A stretch of DNA of 64,000 nucleotides, from contig CALHRZ010000025.1 of the NCBI GenBank assembly GCA_938038445.1, positions 1-64,000 of the forward strand. Reading direction: 5' to 3'. The stretch comes from an uncultured bacterium. Its GTDB lineage: Bacteria; Verrucomicrobiota; Kiritimatiellia; CAIKKV01. Both the position numbers and the translations under genes were made by a program. Below, piece after piece: positions 35,260 through 55,585 of the stretch; the first letter of the stretch is position 1; each line of letters opens with the position of its first letter. Below the pieces are notes generated by a model. The model had not been told where the DNA came from. It was given only the letters and a program-made list of their open reading frames with translations, and did no database searches.

Positions 35260-37074
35260 GTGATGAAACCCTCCCTCATTTCCTTCGAGTACGTCGAGGA
35301 GGCTATTCGGTTAGCGGCGGGTCGGCGGGGGCCACGGCTGTGGAGACGGACGTCCGCGAGCGACCCATGGAAAGAGCGAGTGGAAGCCGATCCGGACTCC
35401 TTGTTTTTACGGGCGTGTATTCGGGAGGAAACGGAAGCGATTTGCGCAGCGCCCTTGCTGGAACGGATTGTCGAAGGGCGACGGCTTTTGGCGGTCTCGC
35501 GGCAATGTTTGTCGCGGATTGCGTTGCTCGATTTTGGCTGGCGGCTTCTTGGCGATCCGCGTTTTCCGCATCGTGCGGCGGAAGAAGTGCTCGCGGTCTG
35601 CCGTTTTTCCGATTGGAATCCTTCGCACTTTCTTGACACGGCGGAGATGAGCCTTGCCGTCGCCTGGGCCCTCGATGCGTTTGGGGAACTGTGGGATCCG
35701 GCGTTTCGCCGGAGGATCGAAAACTCATTGATCCGATTGGGTCTCGATGCGGGCGATGTTAATCCCGAGGCCTGGTGGATTCGCTCGAACAACAATTGGG
35801 GGCAGGTGTGCCATGCGGGGATGACGGCGGCGGCCTTGGTGCTTCTGGAGCGAGACCCTGCGAGGGCGGCGCGAGTGGTTCACCGAGCGGTGACGAACGT
35901 GCCGGCCTCCATGGCGGTCTATGCTCCCGACGGCGGTTATCCCGAGGGTCCTTCCTACTGGAGTTATGGGACGACATTCAACGTCCTTCTTATTCAGATG
36001 CTGGAAAACGTTTTGGGAACGGATTTCGGCCTTTCGGAACAAGAGGGATTTTCGAACACCGGCCTTTATATTCAAGCCATGCGAGGACCGACGGGGTTGT
36101 TTTTCAATTATGCGGATGGAAGTGAAGAGAACGGGTACTGTCCCTCTGTAGTGTATTGGTTTGCGGAACGTTTTGGAACACCGGTTGTTTCGTCGTGGGT
36201 GGAGATGACGCGGCGCCAGTGGCGTTCGGGGTCAGATCAGGCGACTGGGACGCGCAAGAAACGGCGAGACCGCTTTGGGTTGGAATTGCTATGGTTACCC
36301 CCTTTAAGGGGTGCCACTGCGGGTGTTGACTTGCCGCTTGACTGGCAGGATCGCGGCATTGTGCCGGTTGCGGTTTTTCGGAGCGGCTGGGACGATCCCG
36401 ACGCGTGGTTTGCGGGTCTGAAGGCGGGAAGTCCGGGACAAAATCATGGCCACATGGATGTGGGCGCATTTGTGCTGGATGCGATGGGTGTTCGTTGGGC
36501 GGTGGATCTCGGCGCGGACTGTTATCATCGAATCGAATCAAGGGGGCTTTTGCTCTGGGACCGGGCGCAGAATTCTGACCGTTGGCGTGTTTACCGGCTG
36601 AACAATTACAGCCACAACACCCTGACGATCGGGGGAGCGCTACAGCGGGTCGAGGGATATGCGCCGATCACAGGATTTTCTTCGGATCGGGAGAGTCCGT
36701 GGGCGGAGGCGGATTTGACGTCGGTATATGCTTCGCTCGCGACGCGGGTGATTCGCCGTCTGAGCTTGCGGGAACGGTGTTCGGCCGTGATCACCGACCG
36801 GGTGGAAGGAGTTCGGCCGGGAACGCAGGTGGAATGGGGAATGATGACGCGTGCGGATGTGGAGATATCGGGTTCCGTAGCATTTTTGCGGCAGAGCGGG
36901 CGTGTGATGCGGGTGGAAGCGATGGGGGAAGGCATGCGATGGGAGGTTCAGGAGGCGGATCCTCCCCCGGCAGAGCACGATTCGCCGAATCCGGGCGTTC
37001 GCCGGTTGCGGTTTTTCGTTCACGCACCGCCCTCCGGCGAGTTGGCGCTGGAAGTCCGATTTCAAGCCGGCTGA
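35260..37074 (+). CDS. Heparinase II/III family-like protein
   Basis: N-terminal alpha-toroid pattern (SNNNWGQVCHAGMTAAAL, DGGYPEGPSYWSYGT) and C-terminal GQNHGHMDVGAFVLDAMGVRWAVDLGAD. Confidence 0.8.
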   Translation: MMKPSLISFEYVEEAIRLAAGRRGPRLWRRTSASDPWKERVEADPDSLFLRACIREETEAICAAPLLERIVEGRRLLAVSRQCLSRIALLDFGWRLLGDPRFPHRAAEEVLAVCRFSDWNPSHFLDTAEMSLAVAWALDAFGELWDPAFRRRIENSLIRLGLDAGDVNPEAWWIRSNNNWGQVCHAGMTAAALVLLERDPARAARVVHRAVTNVPASMAVYAPDGGYPEGPSYWSYGTTFNVLLIQMLENVLGTDFGLSEQEGFSNTGLYIQAMRGPTGLFFNYADGSEENGYCPSVVYWFAERFGTPVVSSWVEMTRRQWRSGSDQATGTRKKRRDRFGLELLWLPPLRGATAGVDLPLDWQDRGIVPVAVFRSGWDDPDAWFAGLKAGSPGQNHGHMDVGAFVLDAMGVRWAVDLGADCYHRIESRGLLLWDRAQNSDRWRVYRLNNYSHNTLTIGGALQRVEGYAPITGFSSDRESPWAEADLTSVYASLATRVIRRLSLRERCSAVITDRVEGVRPGTQVEWGMMTRADVEISGSVAFLRQSGRVMRVEAMGEGMRWEVQEADPPPAEHDSPNPGVRRLRFFVHAPPSGELALEVRFQAG

Positions 37075-45458: not shown

Positions 45459-48017
45459 TCAAGGGGAGGTGCGATCCCGCTCCACGATTTCCCGAGGGAG
45501 CAGCAGTTCTTCTGCGGAACGCGCGAGGCAGGGAGGGACCGTGGCGAGCAGGCGGAGCCCGTGGGTATTTTCAAATTTCCAGAGTCGGCCATCCTGTCCA
45601 GGGGGAACGGCGGTATGGAACCAACCGTCCTCGAGTGTGGAAAAGTCGAGATGAACATGCCCATCGGCGTCCTTTAACACTCCCGAGATACGGGGGGCCC
45701 AGTTTGCGATACGTTGGGCCCAGCCTCCGACAAGGGTTGTTCCTTTCGGCACATAGAAAAAGAGGGTCCATGGACCGCGAAAGTGGTTGCCGGTTCCCGG
45801 CGTGTCCAGACCGGAAGGAAGGGAGACGGGCATGCCGGCGGGGAATTGGATTCGGGTGTAATCGCCGCCGTCGGTGATTTCGAGGCGGTGGAGCCCTGTA
45901 TACGGCGTGCGCAGACAAATGGCACGGGTTTGCCCGTCGGGCTTTGCTTCATTGCTTTCTGCCACGGGCAGGAGGGTAACCTCCTGAGGGGAGAAGAGAC
46001 GGATTCGGTGAGGGCGGAGATCCCAGACTTTCTGAACCGTTACGGTAAGCACAATGTTGGTGGGGGCTCTCGGGACCCAGAGGTACCAGGTCTGAAGGTC
46101 TTGGGGGACGGTTGGGAACGAACCGGTTGGCACGGCGGGAAGACATAAGGGAGCGGCCGGGATAAGGTCTTCGCCGAAGGGGATGGGGGCGAAAGGAACC
46201 TCTTGGATGGGATTGGAGGCGATGCCTTTTTGGAGAATGACAACAATCTCTTCTTCCGGGAATGGGCGATCGTCTTTGAGGGGATGGTTCGGATCAAGGG
46301 CGGCTTTTTGGCTGGCCAATCGGGCCCAAAGACCGTAGGCATGGATCATCATTGTCTTTCGGATCCGGTATATGAAGGCCAGGAGACGATCCCGGGCTTC
46401 TTCCTTTGCGTTTCCGACAGCGCTTTGATAATCGTGAAAGAATTCCACATACCGGGTGTAGAGGATAAGGTGATCAATTCGCTGCCGGGCATCCGGCTGA
46501 TCTGTCGCTCGTTGTCGAGCCTCGTGGAGCGCCCGATACATCCGACCGGTTAGGTCGCGAGGGGAGCGGCGGGTTTTATCCACGGTGATCAATTCGTAGA
46601 AGGACCGCATAGGAGGTTCGGCAGGGCCAAAGGCACGGGCAAGAAAATCATCAATCCAGAACTGAACCCGATCCGCTTCGTCAAGGTTCCACATGACCCG
46701 GGCTGCGATATAGTAACCCAAGCCGTAAGGGCCCCAGGCATCCCCCGCTTCGCAATCGATAAAGCGGGCACCTTTTTGGTAATAGCGGACGAGGGAATTC
46801 GCGGCGGCGAAAGGACTTGAAACGCGTGAACGTCCCGGCAGGTTCCAGTCCCAGTCTACGACTGAGTAGTAATCGTAGATTCCCATGGCGGCGCCTTGTT
46901 GTTGCCACCCTGCGAGAATTTGGTCCAGCGTATAGCCGCCGGTAATGAACGCAGTGGTGGCGGAGACAATCACGTTGGAATGGACACGGAGGGAAGGAGG
47001 TGGCGCATGTCGGTTATACGCGTACATTCCGACGTATTTAGGCCCGAGTCTGAGGGAGTTGGCGGCTTCGGCGGCGATATTGGCCAGGGTCAATGCGCGA
47101 TCGCTTGGGGTTCCAATGGCCGCGCAATCTGGGCATTCACACCAGCCACTGCCATCGCTGGGGTCGAGCGAGATGGAATCCAGGTCCGGGCGATCGGTGA
47201 ATCGTTTGATCGCATAGCGGCGGATCAAGTCACGAAGGCCGGGATTTCCCACGCAGAACTTGGCATCCCCACCTTGCTTTCTTTGCCCCCCCAACAATGC
47301 GAAATATTCGGGGTGGTCATTGAATTCAGAACGAAAGACGTTGACGATGGACTCGTAGGAATGTCCGCTATTCAGGTCGAATCCCTTAGCCATCCGGTTC
47401 CGAGCGCACCACTCGGCGTAGGGGGTGTTGTTGTAACCCCAAAGCCCCCAGTTGTACCAGATCCGGCGGGCGTAATATGCAGGGGATTGACGGGTGTCCA
47501 CCGCAATCTGGAGTACCGGAAGGTGGGGGATGAGTTCCCAGATTGGCCCCGGAAAAAATTGTCGGTATCCGAAACGGTCCAAGAGGTCCCAGACGGCGTG
47601 TTCTACAGCAAGATCAGTTGCTCCGAGAAGGAGAAGTCCTTCTGGGGTGGAGCGGAGAATGTAGGTTTCCCTGTTAAACGGGCTGAGATCAAAGGTGGGC
47701 TGGTTTTCAAGGAGGGGAAAGGACTCAGGCTGACCAACCAGGATTCCGCGAGGGCCGCTTCCTTCTTGCAAAGAGAAGGGGGCATTAGAAATACGGGAAA
47801 GATACTGGAGCAGAGTAGACGCTGCGGCCCGAACGCGGGGCGAAGCATTTGTTCCGACGACAATGGGGAGTTGAGATTGGCCATTGGAAGCCAGAAGAAC
47901 GGCGGGCGGCGAGGAAGAGGACGGTGAGCAAAGACTCCCAACGGGTGAAGTCAATGCCCCGCACAGACCGGTTGCCATCAAAAAGAGGAGAGGGATCTTC
48001 CGGAGATGGAAAATCAT
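45459..48017 (-). CDS. DUF4838 domain-containing secreted protein (copy 1)
   Basis: ISLDPSDGSGWCECPDCAAIGTPSDRALTLANIAAEAA; alpha-glucuronidase-N-like start; paralogue at 57064. Confidence 0.85.
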   Translation of the reverse strand: MIFHLRKIPLLFLMATGLCGALTSPVGSLCSPSSSSPPAVLLASNGQSQLPIVVGTNASPRVRAAASTLLQYLSRISNAPFSLQEGSGPRGILVGQPESFPLLENQPTFDLSPFNRETYILRSTPEGLLLLGATDLAVEHAVWDLLDRFGYRQFFPGPIWELIPHLPVLQIAVDTRQSPAYYARRIWYNWGLWGYNNTPYAEWCARNRMAKGFDLNSGHSYESIVNVFRSEFNDHPEYFALLGGQRKQGGDAKFCVGNPGLRDLIRRYAIKRFTDRPDLDSISLDPSDGSGWCECPDCAAIGTPSDRALTLANIAAEAANSLRLGPKYVGMYAYNRHAPPPSLRVHSNVIVSATTAFITGGYTLDQILAGWQQQGAAMGIYDYYSVVDWDWNLPGRSRVSSPFAAANSLVRYYQKGARFIDCEAGDAWGPYGLGYYIAARVMWNLDEADRVQFWIDDFLARAFGPAEPPMRSFYELITVDKTRRSPRDLTGRMYRALHEARQRATDQPDARQRIDHLILYTRYVEFFHDYQSAVGNAKEEARDRLLAFIYRIRKTMMIHAYGLWARLASQKAALDPNHPLKDDRPFPEEEIVVILQKGIASNPIQEVPFAPIPFGEDLIPAAPLCLPAVPTGSFPTVPQDLQTWYLWVPRAPTNIVLTVTVQKVWDLRPHRIRLFSPQEVTLLPVAESNEAKPDGQTRAICLRTPYTGLHRLEITDGGDYTRIQFPAGMPVSLPSGLDTPGTGNHFRGPWTLFFYVPKGTTLVGGWAQRIANWAPRISGVLKDADGHVHLDFSTLEDGWFHTAVPPGQDGRLWKFENTHGLRLLATVPPCLARSAEELLLPREIVERDRTSP

Positions 48018-48736
48018 TTCTTCTCCTGTGGAGGGGGGGAGTCGGTGGAAGGTTCCTTTTTCGGTTGAACCGTCGGCTCTCGCAGTCGGACCGGAGGGAA
48101 AGGAATGAGACCTCGTTGGATGGCCATGCTTTGATAGGCGCGACGGGAAGGGCCGCAGAAGTTAGAGCCCATCTGCTGGAAGGGATCGGCTGTCCGTCTC
48201 AAGATACGCATGACGCAATGAGTATCTTGGCATACGGGGACGCCGATGGCGAAACCGAGCGCCCGCATCGCAGCCTGGCGAAGGCGGAGAGTCCGATTGG
48301 TGGCTCCGGGCATGAACTTTGTTAAATTTGCGATGGCCCATTGATCGTCGGGGGCAGCCAGGAGCAGAGTCCCTTTTGCCGATCCGTTGCCAAGGGCCAC
48401 AATTACGACGCGGTTGCTGTTGAACAACGTGGGAATTACCTCGGGAAGGGTGTTCCATTGGGCCTGGAGTGGGATGCCTTCCACCCGAACCCAAAGGTCT
48501 TTTTCCATATAGGATCGGACGTCTTCGAATTCAGACGGTGAAAGCCCTGCCGCATTGACCAAAAGAATCCAGCGATTTGTGGCGCCTGGGGGGACGCGTG
48601 CGAAGGATCTCGGGGTTTCAAGGGATAGGAGGGGATCTGAAGGAGATGGCGTTTGGCCATAGAGAATAGACGGGGCAAAACCGCAGACGAGGAGAATAAT
48701 CCGAACAATTCGACCGTTCATGATTAACCCTTTCAT
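48014..48736 (-). CDS. Secreted archaemetzincin-like (M54) protein lacking catalytic residues
   Basis: AMRALGFAIGVPVCQDTHCVM-x17-C aligns with AMHELGHxxGxxxC-x4-CVM-x17-C; signal-peptide-like N-terminus; 4-nt overlap with the DUF4838 gene. Confidence 0.7.
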   Translation of the reverse strand: MKGLIMNGRIVRIILLVCGFAPSILYGQTPSPSDPLLSLETPRSFARVPPGATNRWILLVNAAGLSPSEFEDVRSYMEKDLWVRVEGIPLQAQWNTLPEVIPTLFNSNRVVIVALGNGSAKGTLLLAAPDDQWAIANLTKFMPGATNRTLRLRQAAMRALGFAIGVPVCQDTHCVMRILRRTADPFQQMGSNFCGPSRRAYQSMAIQRGLIPFPPVRLREPTVQPKKEPSTDSPPPQEKK

Positions 48737-48870
48737 AAGGCGCCGAACAAAGACTAACTGTTATCCACTAGTCAACGCAAGACTTTGATGGTGTGGAACC
48801 AGTTGCGATACGGAAGGGGTCGAAAAAATAGGAGCGCGGACGGCGGATTTTGTCCCTGGCCTATTGCGGA

Positions 48871-51162
48871 TCAGGGAGACGTTTCTTCAGAAATGTTGAA
48901 TGTTGAGGTCTGACCCCGAGGGGAAAACCTCTGAATGGGAGTGGGTGGAAAGGGGAGAAACCAAACGGAGGTTTTTGTTTTGGGAAGTGCAGTTTGGAGG
49001 CGAAGGTCTGTGCCGGCGTTACCGTGAAGAAGGCGGATCATTGGAGGAGGCTGATTAAAGACCCATGCGGCAATGAAAAGCGCATTCCGTCCTTTGGTTC
49101 GAGCGATGAGCGAATGGCGGGGAAGAACCGGCGCCAGTTCGCCGATGGTATGGCCGTGGCCGGGCGGGGGCAGCGGGTCGCGCGCGAGGTAAAAAACGGA
49201 ACCGGGCGGTGCGAGAAGCGATAAAGCCGTTTGACCGGTTGCTCGCTTCCAACCGAAGCGAAGGAGGTTGGAACGGCACAGAAGTCGCCGAACGTTTGAG
49301 AAATGTCGGTATCCCCGCCGGGAACCAAGAGAAGCCCGGGTACTGGGGGTTTGAAGATCCACCGGATTGCCCACTCCATGCATGGCCCAGTCATATAGGT
49401 GGGACTGATTCGAGAGGATGCGATACACGTCGAGGACCATCGAGGGGGTCACAAGGATCGTTCGGTCAAGACACACGCCTGAATAGACCCGTTCGTTTCG
49501 CGCGCGGACTGCTTGGAACCCGTCGCCATCGGGTTGGAAGAGAAGGCATTCGCCGTCGGAAATGGAATCGCGCCATCGGTCGCACTCCCAGATTGAATCG
49601 GTTTCAAAGTCATAAGGGAACATGGGGGATTGATCCACCGTAACGGTATTATGCGCGATGGTAGTGCGAGCCCAAGTCAGATAGTGAGGATCGGCGTATC
49701 CTCGATTGTCCATGCGGGGGGCATCCGTAATTTTTTCACCGCAGGCGTGGAGATCAAGATGGAGGGAGGCGGGGGATTGATGGCCGGCGGCATGGGGACC
49801 CCAGAAGAGAAAGGCGGAAAGAGCGGTGGTGGGGGATGAGGTTGTGCGGAGCACTGCTGCGCCGTAAACGGGGAAAAGAGTCGCGTTATTTTGGTGGTGG
49901 CCGACCAGGGAAAAGGAAACCTTTCTCGGCAATCGGAATGGGAGGGGTGGGTAATCAAACCGAGGAATTTTGAGGAATTCGATCTCCTCGATCCAAGGCG
50001 ATTGGAGGGCGAGGGGGAGACCGGGGAGAGGGCGTTCATCAGTGGGAATTTCTGATTCCGCTTTGCGGATCAACGCTGCATAAAGTGGGTCCTGGTAGGC
50101 TTCATATGCGCGGTGCAGGAAAGGACCCCAGGCGAAGAGGCCACGGAGATTTTCGAGTCGGGAATCGTTCAAACCGGACAAGTCGCCGTTAGGGAATGCG
50201 AGGAAAAAGAGGGCATCGAATGCGGACTTCAGTGTTTTGGTTCCCAACCGGGTGCCATAATCGCGGTGGATATCCTGTCCGTCATTTTGCCACAGGGGCG
50301 GTAGGGTTTTGTGCCACAGATCCACACCCAGAGGGAGCAGCATATCGGCCATTTCCGCGAAGAGCGACAGACTATAGGCATGATAACCAGGAGCCCGTTC
50401 CCAATGGAGACCATCGTCGAGGAGATCATGGCGCAATTGATGGATCAGTCCGTATCGCCAGTCGGCGAGAGAATTTCCCCAGCCGTAGAGAACGTCATGA
50501 ATGCCTTGCCGGTCATGGAGGGCGACGGCGGCTGCCAATCTTCCGCGCAATACTGCCGTATTGTGATTGCCGCAGTCCCGGTGCGCCCCGCTGTTGGATG
50601 TTTCCTTTGTGGATTCCAGAAGTTTCCGAAAGAGGCCATGGTCCCTGGGAGATAGGGGCGAGGCGGCCAGGATGTCGTAGGTCTGGGCGATACGGACGAT
50701 CAATTGGGCTTCCTGGCTGTCTTCGATTCCAAGGCGACCCAAGCCGTGCTGAACCGGCCACTGGGGGTAAATACGAGCGAGATTATGCAAGTGGGCAATG
50801 CTTTTGCGACGGTAACGCGATTTTTGTGTGAAAACCCAAACGATTGCATTTCGCAAGGCCGATTTAGCGGTTTCCTGGGCCCAGGCAGGATCGGGTTCCT
50901 TGACGGAAAGGGGTCCATTCGGCTTATTCGTATCGGCTTTTTGGCGAAGAATCAAAAATGCGTGAGCGTGCCAGCTCTTTCTTCGGATGAGCGTTTGGAT
51001 GCGCTGCAAGGAAGCAGGGCTGATCAGAAGGTGAGGGTGGGGGGGAAAGCGGTTTGGCATGAGACCGAAGGGATCATACATTGCGTTCTGAAGCAATTCA
51101 GGGAACGATTTAGGGGTCAAGGGATCGGGATAAATCCAACATTTCATTTGACAACTTTTCAT
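48871..51162 (-). CDS. Heparinase II/III-like protein
   Basis: GDCGNHNTAVLRGRLAAAVAL-type toroid region, DGLHWERAPGYHAYSLSLFAEMADML, AHNTVTVDQSPM. True start may be a downstream Met. Confidence 0.75.
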   Translation of the reverse strand: MKSCQMKCWIYPDPLTPKSFPELLQNAMYDPFGLMPNRFPPHPHLLISPASLQRIQTLIRRKSWHAHAFLILRQKADTNKPNGPLSVKEPDPAWAQETAKSALRNAIVWVFTQKSRYRRKSIAHLHNLARIYPQWPVQHGLGRLGIEDSQEAQLIVRIAQTYDILAASPLSPRDHGLFRKLLESTKETSNSGAHRDCGNHNTAVLRGRLAAAVALHDRQGIHDVLYGWGNSLADWRYGLIHQLRHDLLDDGLHWERAPGYHAYSLSLFAEMADMLLPLGVDLWHKTLPPLWQNDGQDIHRDYGTRLGTKTLKSAFDALFFLAFPNGDLSGLNDSRLENLRGLFAWGPFLHRAYEAYQDPLYAALIRKAESEIPTDERPLPGLPLALQSPWIEEIEFLKIPRFDYPPLPFRLPRKVSFSLVGHHQNNATLFPVYGAAVLRTTSSPTTALSAFLFWGPHAAGHQSPASLHLDLHACGEKITDAPRMDNRGYADPHYLTWARTTIAHNTVTVDQSPMFPYDFETDSIWECDRWRDSISDGECLLFQPDGDGFQAVRARNERVYSGVCLDRTILVTPSMVLDVYRILSNQSHLYDWAMHGVGNPVDLQTPSTRASLGSRRGYRHFSNVRRLLCRSNLLRFGWKRATGQTALSLLAPPGSVFYLARDPLPPPGHGHTIGELAPVLPRHSLIARTKGRNALFIAAWVFNQPPPMIRLLHGNAGTDLRLQTALPKTKTSVWFLPFPPTPIQRFSPRGQTSTFNISEETSP
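48892..48917. repeat. 26-bp dispersed repeat, copy 2 (inside the 3' end of the heparinase-like CDS)
   Basis: Identical to 18219..18244. Confidence 0.9.
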
Positions 51163-54115: not shown

Positions 54116-55585
54116 TCAGGCGCCATCATTTCTGCGACCTGGCCACCGCTGATCCGCCCAAGGGGAGCGGAGAGGTTCAGTCCCGTTCCGACAAGGTCTT
54201 CCGTCTTTCGTCCATCCGCACCCCCTTTCTTCCAAAATTTGGGTAAGTCGTGTCCGCCAGAGGGCGATTTCCTCCTGGCGGGTCGGATCGGCCGCAAGGT
54301 TTCGGCATTCGTCGGGGTCCTGTTCGAGATCAAAAAACTGTTCTTCATCAGTTCGCGAGAACCAGATGTATTTCCGGCGTCCGTCCGTGAGGTATTGCAT
54401 TTCCGTAGACGGGGAATAGCAGGCCAAGTGTTCGCCGTGGATGAAGGGTCGGACTTGCGAGCGCTCGCCTCGGAGAACGGGCAGGAGGGAGACCCCTTCC
54501 ACGGTAGGAGGCAGAGGGATTCCCGCGATCTCGAGAAGTGTCGGCATCAGATCGCGCAACTCGACGCAGGCGGGCGGTCGTGATGCGACGAGCGGAAAAT
54601 CTCCCCTCAAGGGGGGCACGATGAGGAACGGGATGCGAGCGCTTCCTTCGTAGGGGTAGGTTTTTCGCCAGAGGTGATGATCGCCCTGCATATCGCCGTG
54701 GTCGGAGATGAAAACGATCCATGTGTAGGCTAGCTCTTCCGGATCTTCTCGTTCGAAGTGATGGAACAGGCGTCCCAACTGGCTGTCAATGAAGGAAATC
54801 TCGCCCAGATAACCGGAACGGGCCCGATGAATGTCTTCGGGAGACATTTTTCCTTGCCATGCGTTGGGATCAGCTGCGGTTTGTGGGTTGTCATGACGGG
54901 CGGCCCAGTCGCCCACGACGGGCGGGGGGGTGGTTCGATCATAATAGAGGTTGAAGTACCAGGCGGGAGGAACATAGGGCGAATGAGGTCGTGCGAAGGA
55001 GATATTGAGAAAGAAGGGGCGGTTTCGGTCGCGCCTCCGAAGGAATTCCAGAGATCGCCACATGGTCCACGCCGTGGGGTGGAGGCGTTCGTCTGTGTGC
55101 CAGGGTCGGGCGTGCCAAGAATTATACATGACTCCGTGGTCGTCCGGGGTGACATCCTCCGGGGACTGTAGCGCGAACCAACGGCGATATTCGCTATCCG
55201 GCATTCGCCCTTCCTCATCTAATTCTGCCGATTCGAATCCCATCGAGGCGCGCTGGGGGTGGAAATGTCCTTTTCCGACCAGATGGGTTCGATAACCGGC
55301 TTTGCGCAGTTCGCCGGCCAGCGTATAGGGGAAGTCGCAGGGGATTTGGGTTCCGCCGCGTCCCATACCGAGGACGCCGGTATGCCATTGATCCTGGCCG
55401 GACCAGAGGATCGCGCGAGCGGGAAGGCAGGAGGGGACGGCGGAATAAGCGCGGGAGAAGAGAGCGCCACGGGAGGCGAGGTAGTCCAGATTCGGGGTCT
55501 GGGCAACCGGATGTCCTGCTGCTCCGAGGCAATCGCCCCGCATCTGATCTGCGATGATGAGAATGATATTCGGGGGTTTCGGCAT
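54116..55585 (-). CDS. Sulfatase (Cys-type)
   Basis: NIILIIADQMRGDCLGAAGHP; CLPAR formylglycine motif; DHGDMQGDH. Confidence 0.93.
   Translation of the reverse strand: MPKPPNIILIIADQMRGDCLGAAGHPVAQTPNLDYLASRGALFSRAYSAVPSCLPARAILWSGQDQWHTGVLGMGRGGTQIPCDFPYTLAGELRKAGYRTHLVGKGHFHPQRASMGFESAELDEEGRMPDSEYRRWFALQSPEDVTPDDHGVMYNSWHARPWHTDERLHPTAWTMWRSLEFLRRRDRNRPFFLNISFARPHSPYVPPAWYFNLYYDRTTPPPVVGDWAARHDNPQTAADPNAWQGKMSPEDIHRARSGYLGEISFIDSQLGRLFHHFEREDPEELAYTWIVFISDHGDMQGDHHLWRKTYPYEGSARIPFLIVPPLRGDFPLVASRPPACVELRDLMPTLLEIAGIPLPPTVEGVSLLPVLRGERSQVRPFIHGEHLACYSPSTEMQYLTDGRRKYIWFSRTDEEQFFDLEQDPDECRNLAADPTRQEEIALWRTRLTQILEERGCGWTKDGRPCRNGTEPLRSPWADQRWPGRRNDGA

Follow-up and report, generated by a model that had tools for sequence, protein, structure and literature searches.

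A minus-strand gene in the window analysed here, a stretch of 64,000 nucleotides of DNA from an uncultured bacterium of the class Kiritimatiellia, raises the question of what an archaemetzincin (peptidase family M54) can do once the residues of its active site have been replaced. Archaemetzincins follow the consensus HEXXHXXGXXHCX4CXMX17CXXC, a Cys4 zinc-finger-like element included (PMC3427221). An earlier, sequence-only reading of the window had recognized this pattern in altered form and proposed a secreted pseudopeptidase. We conclude that the protein very probably belongs to an ancient Kiritimatiellia family of exported pseudopeptidases that derive from archaemetzincins and act by binding.

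The open reading frame spans positions 48014-48736 of the minus strand and encodes 240 amino acids counted from an upstream ATG. The start codon is most likely Met6 (48721), which is preceded by a ribosome-binding-site-like AAAGGG, and this would place the gene at 48014..48721 (minus strand) with a product of 235 amino acids. An overlapping plus-strand frame at 47849-48325 was ruled out as a gene, and the minus-strand frame taken as the real one, because the homologues share its strand and frame. The stop codon overlaps the start of the downstream gene as ATGA, and a family-profile search of the class genomes found one family member in the genome of the window.

The former active site and the predicted fold

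On the minus strand at 48230..48265, RALGFAIGVPVC takes the place of HExxHxxGxxHC, the catalytic helix and zinc site of archaemetzincins. The sequence-only reading had given the motif as RALGFAIGVPVC-x4-CVM-x17-CGPS, and we confirmed it at that place and strand with both the x4 and the x17 spacings. It had also listed the catalytic losses as H/E/H to R/A/F; all three replacements (first His to Arg, Glu to Ala, second His to Phe) are present, but the third zinc His, now Val, had been overlooked. Because the consensus has this third His before the first Cys, the loss extends beyond H/E/H to H, E, H and H, that is, to 4/4 of the catalytic-zinc and Glu positions. The C-x4-C-x-M element (48209..48232, minus strand) comprises the Met of the Met-turn together with Cys 1 and Cys 2 of what was once the Cys4 structural zinc site, with CVM at 48217..48209 (minus strand), and CGPS (48146..48157, minus strand) replaces CxxC, with Cys 3 retained and Cys 4 changed to Ser. 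The Gly, the first three Cys and the Met are kept at their spacings and the last Cys has become Ser, just as had been read, which leaves the structural zinc site incomplete at 3/4 Cys. The three leftover Cys may still hold a metal or form a disulfide.

Searched alone, the window protein weakly matched the NCBIfam models NF033824 (Myxo_non_zincin, non-proteolytic archaemetzincin-like; E 0.0037, 17.1 bits where the cut-off is 250) and NF033823 (archaemetzincin; E 0.047); it had no Pfam match at E <= 1, hence did not reach the gathering score of PF07998, and it matched no PDB sequence. The relationship was detected through the family rather than from the single sequence. In an hhalign comparison the family profile aligned end to end with true archaemetzincins (probability 99.4, E 5e-22, 161 columns; E 2.8e-20 when the window sequence headed the alignment), and it matched the PDB sequences 2x7m, 3lmc, 3zvs and 4axq (E 5e-9 to 5e-8). 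PF07998 was matched at E <= 0.01 by 11/15 scanned family members, and one relative (L111) passes its cut-off (39.1 bits against 24.4). By these sequence comparisons, the homology of the family to true archaemetzincins is a full-length one. Existing family models either miss the Kiritimatiellia pseudo-archaemetzincins or would call them peptidases, and PF07998 matches in these bacteria cannot safely be annotated as proteases.

For the window protein, AlphaFold2 was given an alignment that contained 14 class relatives and excluded bona fide archaemetzincins; the resulting model had a pLDDT of 83.6 and a pTM of 0.76, most of the core being above 90. A Foldseek search of the PDB with this model returned archaemetzincins as the top four matches (2x7m, 3zvs, 4axq and 3lmc; best E 1.7e-8), followed by other metzincins, namely metalloproteinases of the matrix and snake-venom types. 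The model of L111, a relative with four Cys, reached a pTM of 0.86 and gave the same archaemetzincin structures (best E 9e-10). The predicted fold is that of an archaemetzincin, so this comparison, which the sequence-only reading had named as a check, left its assignment standing; the structural evidence is strong, although known folds enter into it to some extent through the training of AlphaFold on the PDB. The closest structures are those of AmzA from Methanopyrus (2x7m), Archaeoglobus (3zvs/4axq) and Methanocorpusculum (3lmc). With M54 the window protein shares the predicted fold, the order of secondary-structure elements, the helix Gly, the first three Cys, the Met-turn Met and the spacings, whereas the zinc ligands, the catalytic Glu and the fourth Cys are gone, a signal-peptide-like N-terminus is present, and the GLNFVFG stretch that precedes the active-site helix of M54 is unrecognisable in the alignment.

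The predicted signal peptide, MNGRIVRIILLVCGFAPSILYG (48656..48721, minus strand), was assigned from the sequence and the N-termini of the family, with cleavage inferred before QTPSP. By a simple hydropathy rule, signal-peptide-type hydrophobic N-termini occur in 70/79 family members versus 0/22 mostly canonical archaemetzincins, and the same rule makes the window protein appear exported, or extracytoplasmic. At the other end, a Pro/Lys-rich C-terminal tail, PPVRLREPTVQPKKEPSTDSPPPQEKK (48017..48097, minus strand), is without secondary structure in the model. Both ends had been described as additions to an archaemetzincin; the signal peptide turns out to be a family trait, but the tail is particular to the window protein, and some relatives have acidic or Pro-rich C-terminal tails of their own.

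A family across Kiritimatiellia

Homologues of the window protein were found in 21/58 relatives, at ~24-38% identity, and the family profile matched 151/346 Kiritimatiellia genomes, and true archaemetzincins and TPR-containing forms account for a few of these matches. Of the 67 genomes matched in a sample of the whole phylum, 3 lie outside Kiritimatiellia; on reading, two had HExxH and one resembled the TPR-containing non-catalytic type. Named records of the family are metagenome-assembled genomes labelled Kiritimatiellia and also other Verrucomicrobiota/Lentisphaerota. Orthologues with an intact HExxH, which the sequence-only reading had proposed to look for, are absent: none of the 79 deduplicated family sequences has the motif, and R-x-x-x-[F/M/L] is a conserved substitution throughout the class. 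Arg occupies the first His position in 68/79, one of A, G or S the Glu position in 62/79, and one of F, L or M the second His position (H5) in 62/79; the third His position is mostly P. The window protein has the features that define the Kiritimatiellia pseudo-archaemetzincins, namely an R-x3-[hydrophobic]-x2-G helix without HExxH, an export-type N-terminus and membership of the clade.

In a tree built without the four site columns, the 79 sequences form a single clade (SH-aLRT 96), inside which the window protein lies next to the multi-copy f35 group, a placement that is not firmly supported (83). Since it is divergent, with at most 26% identity in the tree alignment, its role may differ from that of its relatives. 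All four Cys of the structural site are retained in 24 of the 79 sequences, three in 3 (the window protein included), two in 1, one in 35 and none in 16. The Cys/Met framework, earlier described as retained, is indeed present in the window protein but is a vestige, partly or wholly lost in most other lineages, and so not conserved within the family. Because the 79 sequences form one group, the simplest account would be a single loss of the catalytic site before the group spread, followed by later and repeated loss of the structural site. The graded series of four, three, one and no structural Cys provides material on the transition from an enzyme scaffold to a binding protein. Closely related sampled pairs with finite dS gave dN/dS values of 0.10-0.34, which are rough, as dS is high in many pairs; purifying selection acts on the sampled pairs.

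The f35 lineage (L079, L083 and L086; genomes G205, G240 and G212) carries several family copies, some of them clustered on one contig. Its members share a C-terminal extension resembling RxTYxxACxEGWAPAPTNDxQKAIWDxV; the three genomes searched for this tail contain 14 matches, of which G205 has 8. The tail was considered as a general sorting tag and rejected: in these three genomes nearly all matches lie in family-like frames of 255-293 amino acids, plus one 50-amino-acid frame. In genome G005, of the same order, two adjacent short family copies (L074:2867-4479) are strongly divergent and have most Cys absent.

A probable binding role and its rivals

Metzincin catalysis is impossible without the zinc ligands and the Glu. 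Because three His and the Glu are missing, the window protein would hold no catalytic zinc and have no general base, and peptide hydrolysis by the metzincin mechanism would not be expected; the earlier designation as a pseudopeptidase is supported by the predicted archaemetzincin fold and by the lack of HExxH in every relative. From this absence of catalysis we infer a binding role, which we favour because the family shows purifying selection in the sampled pairs, looks exported and has a conserved altered site. The protein would act as an extracytoplasmic scaffold or ligand binder, either through the cleft that once took up substrate or through the surface of the old catalytic helix, and the remaining Cys of the window protein would be dispensable for the family as a whole. 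Evenly poised between acceptance and doubt is a fuller history, in which the zinc site would have been traded for a conserved Arg/hydrophobic putative binding site, the structural zinc site then lost lineage by lineage, and one family multiplied into many copies bearing a new C-terminal extension, the whole constituting a new extracytoplasmic binding family.

The surroundings of the gene raise the possibility that the protein serves in a glycan-degradation neighbourhood, for instance as an extracellular binder of a glycan or glycoprotein. The gene with which it shares the ATGA overlap encodes an exported-looking DUF4838 protein (45459..48017, minus strand; PF16126, E 1.8e-26), neighbours match the Pfam families DUF4838, alginate lyase/heparinase and sulfatase, and in five relatives the family gene is followed by a TMEM260-like O-mannosyltransferase/TPR gene. 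This neighbourhood is not conserved, however. The arrangement with DUF4838 is absent from the neighbour clusters common to at least 3 of the 20 compared loci, and serS instead lies downstream in 36/74 family sequences with enough flank, mostly within 65 bases; the order family gene, serS, tilS, ftsH is conserved over several class families (L065, L068, L108, L115, L186 and others). We consider a glycan role unlikely as stated, and it would fall within the binding model instead of competing with it. We read the serS neighbourhood as a sign of orthology and draw no functional conclusion from it. None of the serS, TMEM260-like/TPR or T2SS-F neighbours, the last being divergent from the family gene in family f22, occurs at the window locus, and serS of the window genome is on another contig. 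Downstream of the DUF4838 gene lie glutathione-peroxidase-like and URO-D-like genes, and the window holds glycan-degradation-type genes at 35260-37074, 45459-51162 and 54119-55585 (heparinase-like by reading, DUF4838, alginate-lyase/heparinase-like and sulfatase).

The altered site could also have acquired a new catalytic or metal chemistry, making the protein an enzyme of another kind on a metzincin scaffold. The prevalence of Arg at H1 (68/79) and of F/L/M at H5 (62/79) is non-random, which points to selection on the former catalytic helix. We nevertheless find new chemistry quite improbable: the lost ligands have no conserved replacement by His, Asp, Glu or Cys, the Glu position holds A/G/S in 62/79 and that of the third His mostly P, and the metal-binding Cys4 site is incomplete in most lineages.

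Regulation of an active archaemetzincin in trans, as by pseudoenzymes that have an active paralogue, would follow a role known for pseudopeptidases in general (review PMC11266112), but has very little to commend it at this locus. In the window genome no match to PF07998 and no active M54 were found; among the genomes read in the class sample, only G333 and G116 have intact HExxH archaemetzincins, and the listed matches include no separate family member from either of them.

CarG of Myxococcus xanthus is a non-proteolytic archaemetzincin homologue that works as a transcription factor together with CarD; it has retained HQxxHxxExxHC as well as four Cys, and it binds two zincs (PMC8156234). By analogy, this precedent shows that the archaemetzincin scaffold can turn into a protein-binding protein, and both CarG and, as predicted, the window protein are bacterial non-peptidases built on it. 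CarG, however, is cytoplasmic and holds its zincs, whereas the window protein is predicted to be exported and has none of the HQxxH and third-His ligands. That the window protein is itself a CarG-like intracellular regulator is scarcely credible: the NF033824 match that hints at it falls at 17.1 bits against the cut-off of 250, NF033823 and NF033824 match the relatives with near-equal frequency, and the N-terminus is signal-peptide-like. None of the adjacent window genes is CarD-like.

Recent decay of the gene, leaving a pseudogene, or a mistake in sequencing or assembly might yield a single sequence with every motif residue altered, but is effectively excluded because the identical loss is clade-wide across many class families, with open frames and with purifying selection in the sampled pairs.

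Other non-catalytic homologues

A non-catalytic archaemetzincin homologue is already known in CarG, and what appears to be newly named here is a class-wide Kiritimatiellia family rather than a new type of system. In those parts of the archaemetzincin literature that were available to us, a family of exported Kiritimatiellia pseudo-archaemetzincins is apparently not described. Its interest lies in an entire bacterial class with exported-looking archaemetzincin homologues that lack all catalytic-zinc ligands, in contrast to the zinc-keeping CarG.

Verrucomicrobiota have a further non-catalytic group among their archaemetzincin homologues (L090, L176 and L178, with which L173 groups), several of its members with TPR-like extra regions. 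These TPR-containing proteins from the same phylum are also without HExxH and form the sister group of the Kiritimatiellia family in the tree (SH-aLRT 89). They differ from the window protein in keeping four Cys, in their long extra regions and in a site that reads SSxxF, GPxxF, STxxS or TSxxH. In a Thermodesulfatator homologue (L126:304-855) the site reads RALGH...SC, with the Glu and two zinc His gone, the Cys4 site present and no signal peptide seen; this loss is apparently independent of that in the Kiritimatiellia family. A Zixibacteria homologue (L135:5689-6255) has HQLGH, the Glu-to-Gln change of CarG outside the myxobacteria.
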